Positions 7,955 through 32,111 of a DNA stretch of 40,572 nt are shown here, piece after piece. The stretch is taken from positions 1-40,572 of the forward strand of contig DAHWFB010000007.1 in NCBI GenBank assembly GCA_027326105.1. Direction: 5' to 3'. The notes beneath the pieces are model-generated. The model did not search any database, was not told the DNA's origin, and worked only from the letters and a program-made list of their open reading frames with translations. The number at the start of each line of letters is the position of its first letter. The stretch's first letter is position 1. A program made the translations under genes and the position numbers. Source of the DNA: Acetobacteraceae bacterium. GTDB taxonomy: Bacteria; Pseudomonadota; Alphaproteobacteria; Acetobacterales; Acetobacteraceae.

Positions 7955-10003
7955 TCAGGGGTTGGGCGCCCCCGGCGGCAGCTTCTTCGGGGGCGGCGGC
8001 GCCGGATGGGGAGCCGGCGGATGATAGGCAGGGACCGGTGGGTGGTAGACCGGAGCCGGCGGGTGATAGGCGGGTGCCGGCGGATGATAGACCGGAGCCG
8101 GCGGATGATAAGCGGGTGCCGGCGGGTGATAGACCGGAGCCGGCGGGTGATAAGCGGGAGCCGGCGGGTGATAGACCGGCGCGGGCTTGGGCGCGACCGG
8201 GGCCGGCGGATGATAGATCGGCGCGGGCTTGGGCGCGACCGGAACCGGCGGATGATAGGGCGCCGGCTTCGGCACCCCCGGCAGCGGCGCCGGCTTCACC
8301 AGCGGAACCGACTTGGGCGCGACCGGAACCGGCGGATGATAGATCGGCGCCAGCTTCGGCGCAGGCAGAACCGGGCGCAACGCCGGCCGCGGCGGCGGCG
8401 GGTGGGCAACGCCCGGCGCCCGGGGCGGGACAACCGGGCGCGCCACGATGCGCGGGCCGGGTGCCACTGGCCGCAGCGGCAGCGGCCGCCCGGCGGGAAC
8501 GATATGCAACTGCTGCGCCACATGCGGGGTCACCCCCAGTGTCGCGACGGTCGGGCGCAGCGGGGCTTGGCCGATTACCGGGCGCGCCGCGCCCAGAAGC
8601 TGCGCCCGGGGGAGGTGCTGCACCGCCGGCGCGATGGGCTGCGATGCGACCATCACCCGCGCCGGCACAACCGTCACCGCGCGGCGATTCACGAAGTTGT
8701 TGATGGTGACGTTTCTCTGCACGATCACCGTGCGGTTGATATTGACGATCCGGGTCACCTGCGGGGCGTTGAAGATATTGACTTGGCGCACATAGGCAGG
8801 TGTCACCCGATAGGGCGGGTAGTAGATCTCCCGCGGGCCGAGCGGCACCCAGCCGATCGCGCCGGCGGCGATCCCTCCGGCGGTGATGCCCACCGCGACG
8901 CCGCCGAGATTGATCCCGATATGGAAGAAGCTCACCAGCGCCGGAGCATAGACCGGGCGGGCATAGAGCGGCGGCGCATAGGCCGGGCCCGCGGCCACCA
9001 CCGGCACCCACGCCCAGCGCGGCCCGACCATCACCCACCGCCCGTAGTGGAAGGGCGCGAAGCCCCAAGGGGCGGCGTCGATCCAGGTCCAGCCCCAGGG
9101 TGCGACGTAGGCCCAATGCCCTTCACGATACGGAACCCAGCCGGGCGAGACCGGGGGATACCAGACCGCCCCATACTCCGGCGAACTGCTCCAGGTGCCG
9201 ATCACAGCGAGATCCGCCCCACCCGTCATCTGTGCGACGACCGGCGGCGGAGCCGCGCCGAACGGCCCGCCCGGCACGCCCTCGCCCGCCGCCGGCGCGG
9301 GTGGCAGGGGTGGGCGCTCGCGGGCAAGCTGGGCGGCGAAGAAAGGGTCGGGAATCAGAGTGGAGATGCTGCCGGTGAAGCTGTCCTGGCCGCTGATGGT
9401 CGCGGTCTGCCCGCCGCCGAGGGCGAGGTCTACCCCCGGCCCGGTCACCTGCGCTTGGCCGTCCAGCACCGAGACCAGTGTCGGATTCTGGGTGTCGCCG
9501 GCCGCGATCTCGTAGCGGCCCGAAGACAACAGTTGCACCGTGCCGCGCGGGGTGGTGATCACCATCGTCTGCCCCTGGGGCAGGTTGCGCAGATGGATGT
9601 ACGCCTCGCCCTGCGGCTGGATCGCCTGCAGCGTCGATTCGTCGAGCGCGGTGATGTCGAACTCGGTGCCGCCGTTCATGGCGATGCGGGCGTTGTCGAG
9701 CTCGATCGCCGCCTGTGAACCGGGCTGGGTCCAAAAGGCATTGCCCGCGGTGACCGGGTAGTTGAGGACCGCCGGCTGCCACTGGTCCTCGCTCTCGGTG
9801 TGGAAGGAAACCTGGCCGGCGACCTGCGCCAACCGCCCGACGCGGGCGGGCGGGTTGACGGGCGCCTGGGCGTCGGGTGAAACCGTGGCCGGCGCCTGCT
9901 GGGCCAACGCCGGAACCGGCAGCAGCGGTGCGGCGAGCAGCCCGAGCGCTGCCGCGGCGGCAGGGGCGAAAGTCCACAGCGGTCGTGAGCCATGCCGAGA
10001 CAT
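7955..10003 (-). CDS. secreted FecR/DUF6600-like protein with Pro-rich repeat tail
   Basis: This 682-residue exported protein has a signal peptide (residues 1-34, cleavage after PALA in front of QQ). A FecR-like beta-rich region follows (about 55-200): a Trp/Gln-rich segment, the strands AIELDNARIAMNGGTEFDI, and the TPRGTVQLLSSGRYEI strand pair. A tryptophan- and tyrosine-rich section (about 285-350) with WVPYREGHW, WGWTWID and HYGRW resembles the DUF6600 domain found in such proteins. The last 110 residues are low-complexity, built on YHPPAP repeats. It has no obvious transmembrane anchor after the signal, so it is probably periplasmic or surface-exposed. The start has GGAGA eight bases upstream. 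The molecular role is unknown; FecR proteins normally partner ECF sigma factors, but none is nearby. Confidence 0.8.
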   Translation of the reverse strand: MSRHGSRPLWTFAPAAAAALGLLAAPLLPVPALAQQAPATVSPDAQAPVNPPARVGRLAQVAGQVSFHTESEDQWQPAVLNYPVTAGNAFWTQPGSQAAIELDNARIAMNGGTEFDITALDESTLQAIQPQGEAYIHLRNLPQGQTMVITTPRGTVQLLSSGRYEIAAGDTQNPTLVSVLDGQAQVTGPGVDLALGGGQTATISGQDSFTGSISTLIPDPFFAAQLARERPPLPPAPAAGEGVPGGPFGAAPPPVVAQMTGGADLAVIGTWSSSPEYGAVWYPPVSPGWVPYREGHWAYVAPWGWTWIDAAPWGFAPFHYGRWVMVGPRWAWVPVVAAGPAYAPPLYARPVYAPALVSFFHIGINLGGVAVGITAGGIAAGAIGWVPLGPREIYYPPYRVTPAYVRQVNIFNAPQVTRIVNINRTVIVQRNVTINNFVNRRAVTVVPARVMVASQPIAPAVQHLPRAQLLGAARPVIGQAPLRPTVATLGVTPHVAQQLHIVPAGRPLPLRPVAPGPRIVARPVVPPRAPGVAHPPPPRPALRPVLPAPKLAPIYHPPVPVAPKSVPLVKPAPLPGVPKPAPYHPPVPVAPKPAPIYHPPAPVAPKPAPVYHPPAPAYHPPAPVYHPPAPAYHPPAPVYHPPAPAYHPPAPVYHPPVPAYHPPAPHPAPPPPKKLPPGAPNP
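8009..8351 (-). repeat. in-gene tandem repeat encoding YHPP(A/V)P units
   Basis: The 3' end of the FecR-like gene holds eleven copies of a YHPP-containing unit. The central copies are 7-residue (21-bp) units that alternate YHPPAPV and YHPPAPA. The outer copies are longer, spaced by VAPKPAP. The alternation suggests a 42-bp unit that expanded by slippage or unequal crossing-over. Reading frame is kept throughout. Confidence 0.85.
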
Positions 10004-27469: not shown

Positions 27470-28474
27470 CTACGCTGGCGCCGCCACTCCATCCTCGGAC
27501 CGTCGATTGGCACCTAGCGTCCCGACCGCTTCCGCCGCGCGCTCGTTCCGCGGCGACCGGCCGAAGCGATGCCGATAGGCCGCAGAGAAATGCGCAGCGG
27601 AGGCGAAGCCGCAGGCAAGGCCTACCGAGGTCACCGGAAGCGCGGTCTGCCGCAGCAGGGTCTGCGCGCGTTCGAGCCGGAAGCCCTGCGCGAAGGCTGC
27701 CGGTCCGCATCCGAGATGGAGATGGAACAGCCGTTCGAGTTGCCGCGCCGAGATCCCGGCGCGGCGCGCGATATCCGCAACCGCCAGCGGCGCTTCGACA
27801 TGCGCCTCGATCAATTCGAGCGCGCGCGCAAGTGCCGGATGGGTGGAGGCGGAGCGCGGTGCCGCGTGCTGGCGCTCGGCTCCGGGGCGGATGCGCTCGA
27901 TCAGAAATTCGTTGGAAATGCGGGCTGCTAGCTCATGTCCCTCCCGGGTCTCGATCAGCGTCAGCACGAGATCGAGCGGCGCGACACCGCCGGTGCAAGT
28001 GATTCGATCGCGGTCGATGGCGAAGAGGTCATCGACGAAGGAAATCCTGGGGAACTCCTCGCGGATCGCGGCAAGATCCTCCCAATGGACGGCGCAGCGA
28101 TAGCCGTTGAGAAGTCCCGCCTCGGCCAGCGCGAAGGTTCCGGTGCAAAGTGCACCAAGCGTCAGCCGGCGCCGCGCAAGCCGCCGCAACACCACGGACA
28201 GCCGCCGCTCCACCGACCGGCGTACCGAGATGCCGCCGCAGACGAACAGGACATCGAGATCGCCCCCCTCTCCTAGCGGCTCCGTCGGCGTAAGCGTGAG
28301 CCCGTTGCTTGCGGCAACCGCGGCACCGTCGAGTGTCACCACCCGCCAGGAATAGATCGCCATGCCGCGTAGCCGGTTCGCCATGCGTAACACCTCAATC
28401 GCATTGGCGGCGGCGATCATGGAGAAATTGGGCAGCGTCAGAAACCCGAAGCGGGTCACGGTGGCAGGGTCCAT
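27470..28474 (-). CDS. gbdR: GlxA/AraC-type regulator, GbdR-like
   Basis: This 334-residue transcription activator has an N-terminal DJ-1/GATase-like domain (about 1-190) and a C-terminal AraC helix-turn-helix pair (about 235-315). The N-terminus, FGFLTLPNFSMIAAANAIEV, then LRMANRL, resembles the opening of Pseudomonas GbdR/CdhR/SouR proteins, which sense glycine betaine, dimethylglycine or related N-methyl compounds. The first DNA-reading helix is ADIARRAGISARQLERLF. A longer frame to 28570 is rejected: the ATG at 28474 lies 10 bp after gbcB. It sits inside the operon between gbcB and dgcA, an uncommon place for a regulator, and would be co-induced. The ligand is inferred. Confidence 0.82.
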   Translation of the reverse strand: MDPATVTRFGFLTLPNFSMIAAANAIEVLRMANRLRGMAIYSWRVVTLDGAAVAASNGLTLTPTEPLGEGGDLDVLFVCGGISVRRSVERRLSVVLRRLARRRLTLGALCTGTFALAEAGLLNGYRCAVHWEDLAAIREEFPRISFVDDLFAIDRDRITCTGGVAPLDLVLTLIETREGHELAARISNEFLIERIRPGAERQHAAPRSASTHPALARALELIEAHVEAPLAVADIARRAGISARQLERLFHLHLGCGPAAFAQGFRLERAQTLLRQTALPVTSVGLACGFASAAHFSAAYRHRFGRSPRNERAAEAVGTLGANRRSEDGVAAPA

Positions 28475-28484
28475 GCCGGCATTC

Positions 28485-29576
28485 TCACCGGTCGACGACC
28501 AGATCGGACAACGGCTTCGAACAACAGAGCAGTACCATTCCCTGGTCGATCTCGCGCTGGCGGATACCACCCTGGTGCTTCATCTCAACGGTACCGGAGG
28601 CCAGCTTGCTCTTGCAGGTTCCGCAAAGGCCCTTGGTGCAGGAGGAAGGCAGCCGCATGCCGGCCGCACGCGCCGCGTCGAGCACGAACACATCCGGCGG
28701 ACAGACGACGCTGCGCCCGCTCTTCGAAAAGCTCACGGTGAATCCGGCGCTCGCAACCAGAGTGGTGACCGGCTCCGGCGCCGCCGCCTGTAGCGTCAGG
28801 AAGTCGAAGCTCTCCTCGTGATAGCGTGCCATGTCGAAGCCCGCCTCGGCGAGCATCACCCGCACCGCGCCCATGTAGGGTGCAGGCCCGCAAGTGAAAA
28901 TCTCACGCTCGTCCAGATCAGGGACGCCGAGCCGCAGCATGGGAAGGCTCAAGCGGCCGCGAAATCCGGTCCAGGGCTCGCCTGTCGCATCCGCCTCGCA
29001 GATCGGAACGAAACGGAAATTCGGGCGATGGGAAGCGAAGAGCGCGAGTTCATCGCGGAATATGATGTCGGCCGGGCTGCGTGCGTTGTGGACGAAGACG
29101 ATATCGGTCTCCGCCGCGAGGTCGTCGTGATAGCGTGCCATCGACATCAGCGGCGTGATGCCGGAACCGCCGGAGAGAAACAGATATTTCGGCGCCGGAT
29201 GAGCGAGCCCGGTGAACTCCCCGAGCGGCCCGACGGCCTGCACCCGCATGCCCGGTCGCATGGTCGCGTGCAGCCACGGTGAAACGGCACCACCCGCGAC
29301 CCGCTTCACGGTGATCGAGATCAGATGGGGGCGGGTGGGCGAGGACGCAATCGTGTAGCAGCGGTTGATGCGTTGCCCGTCGATCAGGAAGTCGAAGGTC
29401 AGGAACTGGCCCGGCCGGTAGCGGAACAGCCGTGGATCGGGGGCGGAAAAGACGAACGTCTTGACGTCGTGCGTCTCCTGCCGCACCTCGCGACACACCA
29501 GCGTGTCATCGACCTCCGCATCCCAGGCCGCGCTGGTGCCCTCCGCCGCGATGCGCGCCTCGCCGATCAGGCTCAT
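28485..29576 (-). CDS. gbcB: glycine betaine monooxygenase reductase GbcB
   Basis: This 363-residue ferredoxin reductase passes electrons from NADH to the Rieske oxygenase GbcA. The flavin domain has RCYTIASSP, the NAD-binding lobe GGSGITPLMSMA and a terminal GPAPYM. A plant-type [2Fe-2S] domain forms the last 90 residues, with CTKGLCGTCKSKLASG and a later cysteine in LLCCSKP. The order flavin, NAD, [2Fe-2S] is the standard class IA-like reductase order of GbcB, VanB-type and related enzymes. The start overlaps the gbcA stop by 4 bp (ATGA), showing tight coupling with its oxygenase. Confidence 0.9.
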   Translation of the reverse strand: MSLIGEARIAAEGTSAAWDAEVDDTLVCREVRQETHDVKTFVFSAPDPRLFRYRPGQFLTFDFLIDGQRINRCYTIASSPTRPHLISITVKRVAGGAVSPWLHATMRPGMRVQAVGPLGEFTGLAHPAPKYLFLSGGSGITPLMSMARYHDDLAAETDIVFVHNARSPADIIFRDELALFASHRPNFRFVPICEADATGEPWTGFRGRLSLPMLRLGVPDLDEREIFTCGPAPYMGAVRVMLAEAGFDMARYHEESFDFLTLQAAAPEPVTTLVASAGFTVSFSKSGRSVVCPPDVFVLDAARAAGMRLPSSCTKGLCGTCKSKLASGTVEMKHQGGIRQREIDQGMVLLCCSKPLSDLVVDR

Positions 29577-30829
29577 CCGACGAGTGCGGCCATGCGGCCG
29601 ATGTACCAGTTGGAGAATTTCTCGACCAGCATCTCGGTATGCGGCGAATAGGGCCCGGGCAGGTAGCCCGGCATCTTCGCCCCGGCGTGGGCCAGGCCGA
29701 CGAGTTCACTGTCCTGACGGTTGGTCGCGTCCCACACGGCGACGAGATTGTCGACGTCGTAATCGACTCCGGCGACCGCGTCCTTGTGCACCAGCCATTT
29801 GGTGCGCAAAAGCGTATGGTCGGCGTCGATCGGCAGCACCGCGAAGGTGACGATGTGATCGCTCATGAAATGGTGCCAGGAATTCGGCTGCGTCCAGAAC
29901 GAGAGATCGCCGAGCTTGGCATCGGCCAACTGGCCGAGCAGCTTGCGCGACGCGACGCGAGTGTCGAGCGTCTGCGATTCCCCCGCCTGGTCCATCGGCA
30001 TCCGCTCGGCACGGAATCCGGTCACGCGATCGTCGAGATGGTCGATCTCGCGTGCTGGCAGCCCGGCGGCTTCCCACTTCGCATGCAGATCCTTGACCAT
30101 CCCGTCATAAGCACGGAACTGCGCGCGCTTCTGCTCGTCCATCTGTTCGGGCGCGTACCCGAAGCCATATTCGAAAATCGACGTGGTGAGCTCGGGATGG
30201 TTCATCGCACAGTGATAGCACTCGCGGTTGTTTTCCATCGTGAGCTTCCAGTTGCCCTCCTCGATGATGTCGATCTGCTTGACCAGCTTGCAGTTGGGCA
30301 GATCGTGCGGGGCGAGATAGGGTGTCATCGCCGCGGCCATGGCGTCGAAATCCGCCGGCGGCTCCTCGGCGAGGCAGACGAACAGCAACCCGGCCAGGGA
30401 ACGCACATGCACGCGCTGCAATCCGTGGCAGCCGGCATCGAAGCCATCACCCATGTGTTCGGCGTGCAGAAGCCGCCCGTCGAGCCCGTACGTCCAAGCA
30501 TGATAGCGGCAGACGAGGTTGCCGACGGTTGCCTTTTCCTCGGTGACCAGCTTGGCACCGCGATGGCGGCAAACGTTGTGCAGCGCGTGGATCGACATAT
30601 CGTCATCGCGCCCGATCAGGATCGAGTTCTCGCCGATCTGGACCACCATCACATCGCCCGGCTCGGCGATATCGGGCTCCACGCCGACAAAGATCCAATG
30701 CCGCCCGAAGATCAGGTCGAGATCGGCGCCGAAGATCTCAGGGCTGGTATAGAATGGCGCCTCCAGCGTGTAGCCCTGGCGCCGGCGGGCGAGCAGCGTG
30801 GCAAGCGGCGAACGCAGCGCATCAAGCAT
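29573..30829 (-). CDS. gbcA: glycine betaine monooxygenase oxygenase GbcA
   Basis: This 418-residue Rieske non-haem iron oxygenase demethylates glycine betaine to dimethylglycine plus formaldehyde, using O2 and electrons from GbcB. The Rieske motif is C-x-H-x17-C-x2-H, seen as CRHRGAK and CRYHAWTYG near residues 87-110. The mononuclear iron site is in ENNRECYHCAMNHPEL, near residue 200. A frame continuing to 30907 is rejected: the ATG at 30829 is preceded by AGGGGGG, and the family begins MLDALRSPL. It is the first gene of an operon with gbcB, gbdR, dgcA, dgcB, etfA and etfB. Other trimethylammonium substrates (carnitine, stachydrine) are less likely given DgcAB and Sox neighbours. Confidence 0.9.
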   Translation of the reverse strand: MLDALRSPLATLLARRRQGYTLEAPFYTSPEIFGADLDLIFGRHWIFVGVEPDIAEPGDVMVVQIGENSILIGRDDDMSIHALHNVCRHRGAKLVTEEKATVGNLVCRYHAWTYGLDGRLLHAEHMGDGFDAGCHGLQRVHVRSLAGLLFVCLAEEPPADFDAMAAAMTPYLAPHDLPNCKLVKQIDIIEEGNWKLTMENNRECYHCAMNHPELTTSIFEYGFGYAPEQMDEQKRAQFRAYDGMVKDLHAKWEAAGLPAREIDHLDDRVTGFRAERMPMDQAGESQTLDTRVASRKLLGQLADAKLGDLSFWTQPNSWHHFMSDHIVTFAVLPIDADHTLLRTKWLVHKDAVAGVDYDVDNLVAVWDATNRQDSELVGLAHAGAKMPGYLPGPYSPHTEMLVEKFSNWYIGRMAALVG

Positions 30830-30852
30830 GAAGCCATCCCCCCTGGAAAATC

Positions 30853-30932
30853 CGACGCCTGAGTTTCGCCGATCGGACATCGAAGGACTATTCTCTGTCC
30901 GACGCAATTTATCAAAAATCCGTCAGGCGTCG
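30853..30932. promoter_or_regulatory. nested inverted repeats around the gbcA promoter
   Basis: The outer perfect 10-bp inverted repeat is CGACGCCTGA (30853-30862) and TCAGGCGTCG (30923-30932). Inside it is TCGGACA (30873-30879) and TGTCCGA (30896-30902), a 7-bp perfect repeat that spans the -10 element. A direct repeat TCCGACGC occurs at 30851-30858 and 30898-30905. They look like regulator half sites arranged about the promoter, with the outer right arm upstream of the -35. Which of the nearby GlxA/AraC or DeoR proteins binds is unknown. Confidence 0.65.
30887..30915 (-). promoter_or_regulatory. sigma70-like promoter of the gbcA operon
   Basis: On the minus strand, TTGATA (30910-30915) and AATAGT (30887-30892) are separated by exactly 17 bp. 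Transcription would begin near 30880, about 50 bp upstream of the gbcA start. The -35 has five matches and the -10 four matches to consensus. It is flanked and overlapped by inverted repeats, so it is probably regulated. Confidence 0.65.
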
Positions 30933-30937
30933 CCGAC

Positions 30938-31981
30938 CTACTCGAAAACCCGCCCCCCGGCGAGCTCTCCCCCTTCACCGCGGCCGTCGCCCGCACCGGG
31001 GAGTCGGCCGAGGTTCCCGCCGACCCGCCCTCCGGACGGAGGAAACCCATGTAATTCCTTGAATTGACGAGAGAAATGAGCGCAGTCGGAAAACCCCGCG
31101 TCGAGCGCGATGTCGGTTACCGAGCGGTTGGTGTTGTCGAGCAGCCAGCGCGCATAGCGCAGCCGCAAGGTGCGGTAGAGCGCTGACGGCCGTCGCCCGA
31201 GCGCGGCATGGAACACCCGCTCGAGCTGTCGCGTGGAAAGCCCGAGCCGGGCGGCAATGCCGGCGATCGGCAGCGGATCGGCGAGATTCTGCTCCATCAG
31301 CAGGAGCGCTCGGCGTACCCTGGGGTCCGCCACGCCGTCCCCCACCGGCGGGTGCGGCTGGGCTTCCTCGCCGCCGCGGGCACTGTCGAACAGCAGTACC
31401 TGGCGGCTCTTCTGCGCGGCCGACCGGCCGATATGCCGCTCGATCAGAAAGGTCGCGAGATCCGCCGCGCCCGCCCCGCCCGCACAGGTGATGCGATCCC
31501 CGTCGGCCTCGAACAGCCGCTCCGCGCTCACTGCGTGGCCGGGAAACGCATCGAGAAAGTCCTGATAGTGCAGCCAGTTGACACAGACCCGCCGACCTTC
31601 CATCAGCCCCGCACGGCAGAGGATGAAGCTGCCCGTGCAAACCCCGATGAGGGTCACGCCCGCACGGGCCGCGGCCTGCAGATAGGTGATCGTCGCCTCG
31701 TCCACCTGCCGCCCGCCGTGCAGAATCCCGCCGATCACCGCGACATAGTCGAACTCGCGCGGATCGGGAAACCTGACCGTCTGCCCTACGCTCACCCCGC
31801 AACTCGCTCGCACCGGCTCCGGCCGGCTCGAAAGAATCGACCAGCGGCACTGGATCGGACGCGATCGGTCGCTCTCGTCGGCAGCAAGGCGGATCGGGTC
31901 GATGAACAGTGAAAATGCCGAAAGAGTGAAATTCTCGGCGAGAATGATGCCGATGGAAAGCGGCCGCCGACGCGCCATCAT
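30938..31981 (-). CDS. second GlxA/AraC-type regulator
   Basis: This 347-residue transcription factor has an N-terminal DJ-1/GATase-like domain (about 10-200, with GVCTGSFILCRAGLM holding the nucleophile-elbow-like cysteine) and two C-terminal AraC helix-turn-helix motifs: AGIAARLGLSTRQLERVF, and VTDIALDAGFSDCAHFSRQF. It ends in a Gly-rich tail. It is more distant from GbdR than the copy at 27470, so it may sense a different N-methyl or amino compound such as sarcosine or choline. Two adjacent ATGs at 31981 and 31978 fit the family start (MARRRPLSIGIILAENF) and follow a G-rich tract. It lies between the gbc and sox gene groups, in the same direction. Confidence 0.82.
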   Translation of the reverse strand: MMARRRPLSIGIILAENFTLSAFSLFIDPIRLAADESDRSRPIQCRWSILSSRPEPVRASCGVSVGQTVRFPDPREFDYVAVIGGILHGGRQVDEATITYLQAAARAGVTLIGVCTGSFILCRAGLMEGRRVCVNWLHYQDFLDAFPGHAVSAERLFEADGDRITCAGGAGAADLATFLIERHIGRSAAQKSRQVLLFDSARGGEEAQPHPPVGDGVADPRVRRALLLMEQNLADPLPIAGIAARLGLSTRQLERVFHAALGRRPSALYRTLRLRYARWLLDNTNRSVTDIALDAGFSDCAHFSRQFKELHGFPPSGGRVGGNLGRLPGAGDGRGEGGELAGGRVFE

Positions 31982-32111
31982 TCCCCCCCCGCGCGGCGGC
32001 GGAGTAGAGGAGCTATGCACATGCGGAGGAGCCATGGCGGTGAGCGAAGCTTTCTTGTTGAACTGGTCACTCTACGCCTCTGCCCCACTGGCGGAAAGCC
32101 CGCCGTCGCGT

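Follow-up and report, generated by a model that had tools for sequence, protein, structure and literature searches.

Introduction

The ARG box bound by ArgR of Pseudomonas reads TGTCGCN6GNAA and is repeated after 5 bp (PMC10963909), and therefore has a period of 21 bp. In the site of CdhR, GGTCGC is directly repeated across a 15-bp spacer, and the site is described as very similar to those of GbdR, SouR and ArgR (PMC5806209). Here we describe the region upstream of a gbcA-like gene in a 40,572-nucleotide stretch of DNA from an Acetobacteraceae bacterium (hereafter, the window), together with the corresponding regions of its relatives. The consensus upstream of gbcA in the relatives shares with the ARG box the core, the A-rich end, the 21-bp period and the same-strand arrangement of the half-sites. 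It differs in that the ARG box stands at arginine genes, whereas the gbcA element lies upstream of glycine betaine genes; moreover, the copy in the window is degenerate (about 5-7 of the 9 fixed bases in each half-site) and is followed 25 bp further on by an extra half-site. The sites of CdhR and GbdR in Pseudomonas aeruginosa are likewise direct-repeat half-sites, for GATase-AraC regulators of betaine/carnitine catabolism, and gbcA is itself a glycine betaine gene. However, the class I site of CdhR is located further upstream and the CdhR regulator is divergent, while the gbcA site abuts its promoter, with the -10 at a fixed 37 bp, and the regulator gene is upstream on the same strand. As in AraC half-site switching, several tandem half-sites beside one promoter would allow a switch, but the third half-site of the window is unconserved among the relatives.

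Results

The gbcA locus and two nearby regulator genes

The genome that contains the window (2.55 Mb in 132 contigs, 82% complete) is the single representative of its genus in our comparison set, with all relatives at genus distance or more; the best matches within the family are apparently loci of named Acidisoma and Acidiphilium genomes. The gene order along the minus strand is DeoR-type regulator, soxB and other sarcosine oxidase genes, L-serine ammonia-lyase, GATase-AraC regulator 1, gbcA, gbcB, GATase-AraC regulator 2, dgcA-like and dgcB-like genes, the last two labels being given by position and family resemblance. The gbcA-like protein scored 428 bits against NF058607, under the cut-off of 670. 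Its ATG (30829), preceded on the 5' side by GGGGGG, is aligned with the starts in the relatives, and is separated from the stop codon of regulator 1 (30938) by about 110 bp (a 111-bp intergenic region) in which the repeats described below are located (Table 1).

Two nearby genes code for candidate regulators with DJ-1/PfpI and AraC HTH domains, as expected of a GATase-AraC operator. Against the GbdR model (NF052371; cut-off 480 bits) regulator 1 scored 193 bits and regulator 2 scored 344 bits, making regulator 2 the more GbdR-like; since neither reaches the curated cut-off, we label both, on their sequences, GbdR-like and not GbdR proper. Orthologues of regulator 1 (~61-69% identical) adjoin gbcA in many relatives. 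The two regulators, which flank gbcAB, are ~34% identical to one another, and many relatives keep both, which makes a division of labor between them (e.g., betaine vs. catabolite) likely. Elsewhere in the window (7955-10003, minus strand), we observed a protein whose long tail is rich in proline and made up of YHPPAPVYHPP-type repeats.

Table 1. Positions of genes, half-sites and repeat arms at the gbcA locus of the window
Feature	Coordinates	Strand	Remarks
Outer inverted-repeat arm	30853..30862		Close to predicted transcription start; unconserved
Outer inverted-repeat arm	30923..30932		Just past regulator 1 stop codon; unconserved
Inner inverted-repeat arm TCGGACA	30873..30879		Minus strand TGTCCGA, inside half-site C; unconserved
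Inner inverted-repeat arm TGTCCGA	30896..30902		Minus strand TCGGACA, inside half-site B; unconserved
Half-site A, distal, CTGACGGATTTTTGATAAA	30908..30926	-	5.4 bits alone vs. distal matrix
Half-site B, promoter-proximal in conserved register, GCGTCGGACAGAGAATAGT	30887..30905	-	21 bp after A, 25 bp before C
Half-site C, extra, unconserved, ATGTCCGATCGGCGAAACT	30862..30880	-	11.1 bits vs. proximal matrix
Predicted -10 hexamer GAAACT	30862..30867	-	Weak, activator-dependent; falls at model column 62
gbcA-like gene, glycine betaine monooxygenase oxygenase subunit	29573..30829	-	Rieske and Ring_hydroxyl_A domains
GATase-AraC regulator 1	30938..32035	-	DJ-1_PfpI and HTH_18; immediately upstream of gbcA, same strand
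GATase-AraC regulator 2	27470..28570	-	DJ-1/PfpI and AraC HTH domains; downstream of gbcB

The inverted repeats and their chance level

A preliminary description of the region had reported nested perfect inverted repeats that enclose a gbcA promoter. The outer repeat is indeed complementary at 10/10 positions with 60 nt between its arms, the inner one reads TCGGACA-N16-TGTCCGA, and the sequence TTGATA-N17-AATAGT is present on the minus strand (30915-30887). A direct repeat said to be enclosed, TCCGACGC, occurs at 30851-30858 and 30898-30905, but one copy begins 2 bp outside the outer arm; similarly, the inner repeat, described as covering the promoter, covers the AATAGT box but leaves TTGATA outside. 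When the 111-bp intergenic region was dinucleotide-shuffled, 0.45% of the shuffles had a perfect inverted repeat of 10 bp or more with a gap of up to 100, 12.7% had one of 7 bp or more with a gap of up to 20, and 0.25% had both types together; an exact 8-bp direct repeat was found in 9.8%. The 40.6-kb window contains 17 outer-type and 118 inner-type inverted repeats of equal quality, and a chance encounter is therefore expected when 40 kb are scanned. TTGATA-N17-AATAGT matches the promoter consensus at 9/12 positions, and a match of this kind is uncommon given the base composition of the region (0.0 ± 0.2 expected); it sits in the A-rich ends of the half-sites. When up to 2 mismatches were allowed, a genome-wide search located the inner repeat in two other places only, both of them start codons reading ATGTCCGA (gyrB on contig C78 and a second gene on contig C117), and these were discarded.

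The arms could also act in RNA, if read-through from the regulator gene formed a nested hairpin governing gbcA termination or translation. Both outer and inner arms are paired in the minimum-energy fold; however, the fold is no more stable than those of shuffles (z -1.18; 27/200 as stable), the region has no Rfam match and the arms are unconserved in the relatives, and we regard such control as highly improbable.

A tandem element with a fixed -10 is conserved upstream of gbcA

Searching 397 genomes of the family, along with 80 named genome records, yielded 96 non-redundant gbcA upstream regions. Same-strand GTCG pairs exactly 21 bp apart were present in 54 of these 96 regions, compared to a mean of 3.9 per distance, and inverted TGTCG/CGACA pairs showed no distance peak in the same set. 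A 70-column expectation-maximization model, trained with the window excluded, found an element in ~70/96 regions with the consensus ATGTCG...T.....AA....ATGTCGCTT..G.GAAAGT....................A.A.T, which comprises half-sites TGTCGC..G.AA arranged in tandem on one strand at a period of 21 bp. The final A.A.T, which emerged without being given to the model, is a -10 hexamer located 37 bp beyond the proximal T (examples in the relatives include AACAAT, GATAGT, GATACT, CAGACT and similar hexamers); NANNNT occupied model column 62 in 76% of the 70 relatives and any other scanned column in at most 11%. Expectation-maximization from other starting spacings gave similar likelihoods for several starts, and the 21-bp period therefore rests on the direct count of GTCG pairs. 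Among the 72 relatives with a half-site pair scoring at least 12 bits, the best pair was 21 bp apart in 69.

Several loci depart from this pattern. The element was absent at L047, L050-L052 and several Jiella and Aurantimonas loci, where gbcA directly follows an apparent soxG/dgcA coding sequence; L117, L118, L125, L128, L129, L132 and L133 likewise have gbcA right behind an apparent soxG/dgcA coding sequence and lack the tandem site. Such absence is what would be expected inside operons, and control of gbcA has probably shifted to the start of a longer operon. In an Acidiphilium-like group (L009, L011, L014, L017, L021), the proximal half-site is apparently kept and the distal one at 21 bp lost or diverged, with the spacing from the proximal half-site to the -10 apparently also retained in at least one locus; this suggests family members with single half-site gbcA promoters. 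The host genome itself has a second gbcA-like gene (G000:C90:1101-2459; L053, L143), ~53% identical, which adjoins a miaB-like gene and lacks a gbcB match within the 5 kb examined. Its promoter, a member of the training set, has a canonical TGTCGC-N15-TGTCGG with a GATACT -10 (19.3 nats), and its element was recovered genome-wide at E=0.001.

When the positions of the inverted repeats were aligned in 70 relatives, the outer arms formed 2.34 of 10 pairs vs. 2.68 for slid controls, and the inner arms 1.66 of 7 vs. 1.88. The conservation expected of a looping operator is thus missing from these relatives, and looping between the outer arms, which pair no better than slid controls, is unsupported. 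The same holds for inverted symmetry as a functional feature: what the relatives conserve is a tandem direct repeat and a differently placed -10. Phylogenetic footprinting, which had been proposed as a check, supports the operator region; lack of conservation, which the preliminary description had named as grounds for refutation, holds for the inverted repeats, with the relatives compared at genus distance or more. Taking the inverted repeats as operators and TTGATA-N17-AATAGT as the promoter, with the outer arms looping or binding an activator and the inner repeat binding a repressor, would account for the rarity of the outer repeat in shuffles of the region and for the promoter match. Against it stand the unconserved arms, the flat distance profile of inverted pairs in the relatives, the 17 equal outer-type repeats of the window, and the columns of AATAGT, which in the relatives are half-site columns; we consider it very unlikely.

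The window carries a degenerate copy of the element

The model matched CGCCTGACGGATTTTTGATAAATTGCGTCGGACAGAGAATAGTCCTTCGATGTCCGATCGGCGAAACTCA (30929-30860, minus strand) with 5.4 nats, the next match in the region scoring -12.6. This register, half-sites A and B plus the -10, ranked first among 81,006 window positions and was equaled by 2/5000 shuffles; the combined score of proximal half-site and -10 is likewise highest at B. Tandem half-sites with the TGTCGC core and A-rich end are hence present in the window at 21 bp in degenerate form, adjacent to the promoter and at the fixed distance from a -10, with GAAACT in the conserved column. The distance from the site to the start codon (100) falls in the range of the relatives (96-207). 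Half-sites A and B are degenerate: with the proximal matrix, B reaches just 1.2 bits, below the relatives' 5th percentile of 8.9. GAAACT fits the -10 consensus at 3/6 positions only, compared with 9/12 for the promoter match TTGATA-N17-AATAGT. A local sequence-model search of the window (sequence-only model, RNA tool) did not report the A+B register, probably since local scoring disfavors two weak half-sites. As a genome-wide finder, the sequence-only model returned just the promoter of the second gbcA-like gene and a chance match within a ligase-like gene, and it was set aside.

Superimposing the half-sites on the reported features revealed that the inner inverted repeat consists of the cores of B (GTCGGACA) and C (TGTCCGA), B including its left arm and the reported '-10' AATAGT, and C including its right arm and overlapping the predicted -10. 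Half-sites that point in the same direction appear inverted because the core GTCSGAC (GTC(G/C)GAC) is nearly its own reverse complement. The AATAGT box occupies the GAAAGT columns of the proximal half-site, and TTGATA overlaps the A-rich columns of the distal one.

Scored as half-sites alone, B+C (19.8 bits) exceeds A+B (6.6 bits). B+C, at 25 bp, is the top direct pair in 40.6 kb for spacings of 15 to 30 (next, 13.4 bits), and its score was attained by 0/3000 shuffles; A+B is also above chance (p about 0.002). The score of C alone is at a level found at about 4e-5 of window positions. However, a third half-site of C-like strength was present in 0/70 relatives, the sequence 37 bp downstream of C is GGGGGA, without -10 character, and the B+C pair would be closer to the ATG than the aligned sites of the relatives. 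We prefer A+B for activation because B+C departs from the relatives in its 25-bp spacing, its missing -10 and its proximity to the ATG.

The strength of B+C raises the possibility of a switch comparable to that of AraC, in which an uninduced dimer on B+C would cover the -10 and the start, and inducer would shift it to A+B for activation. Extra half-sites and looping have been proposed for CdhR (PMC5806209), and both pairs are above chance in the window. With the third half-site missing from all 70 relatives, each at genus distance or more, and the best pair of the relatives almost always 21 bp apart, we consider the switch unlikely. It is quite unlikely that a lineage-specific gain of C turned a two-half-site promoter into a light AraC-style switch, with one regulator repressing at B+C and activating at A+B.

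Discussion

The tandem element and its -10 are conserved in the relatives and matched in the window. The region is probably the operator-promoter of gbcA for a GbdR/CdhR/ArgR-type (GATase-1-like AraC) activator that acts as a dimer on A+B with GAAACT as the -10. Most likely, it is a GbdR-like activator operator of the ordinary sort, a degenerate case of a known type with one extra half-site that may be of interest. The preliminary description had taken the region for the gbcA promoter/operator, a prediction we share, and binding by one or the other of the local GATase-AraC (GlxA-type) regulators is plausible; the joint activator and repressor binding that it also proposed may occur, with the unconserved half-site C overlapping the predicted -10.

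We infer that the activator dimer would bind tandem half-sites of the same orientation, not inverted ones, and in the conserved register would occupy A and B across one 21-bp period, with B overlapping the -35 position. RNA polymerase would then be recruited to the weak -10, and the transcript would begin at about 30855 with a leader of ~25 nt, in which GGGGGG is the putative ribosome-binding site. The inducer is likely glycine betaine or a catabolite, for which one of the two adjacent regulators would be the sensor. As for half-site C, it would be either a product of chance or an auxiliary, possibly inhibitory, contact.

A striking but unconserved palindrome is thereby replaced with a tandem-site rule: the regulatory region had been rightly spotted and its symmetry misread. 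The case is also a caution that a near-self-complementary half-site core makes direct repeats seem inverted. For many Alphaproteobacteria, the rule is testable, namely that gbcA promoters have tandem ARG-box-like half-sites at a fixed 37 bp from the -10, and it is usable for finding betaine-regulated promoters.
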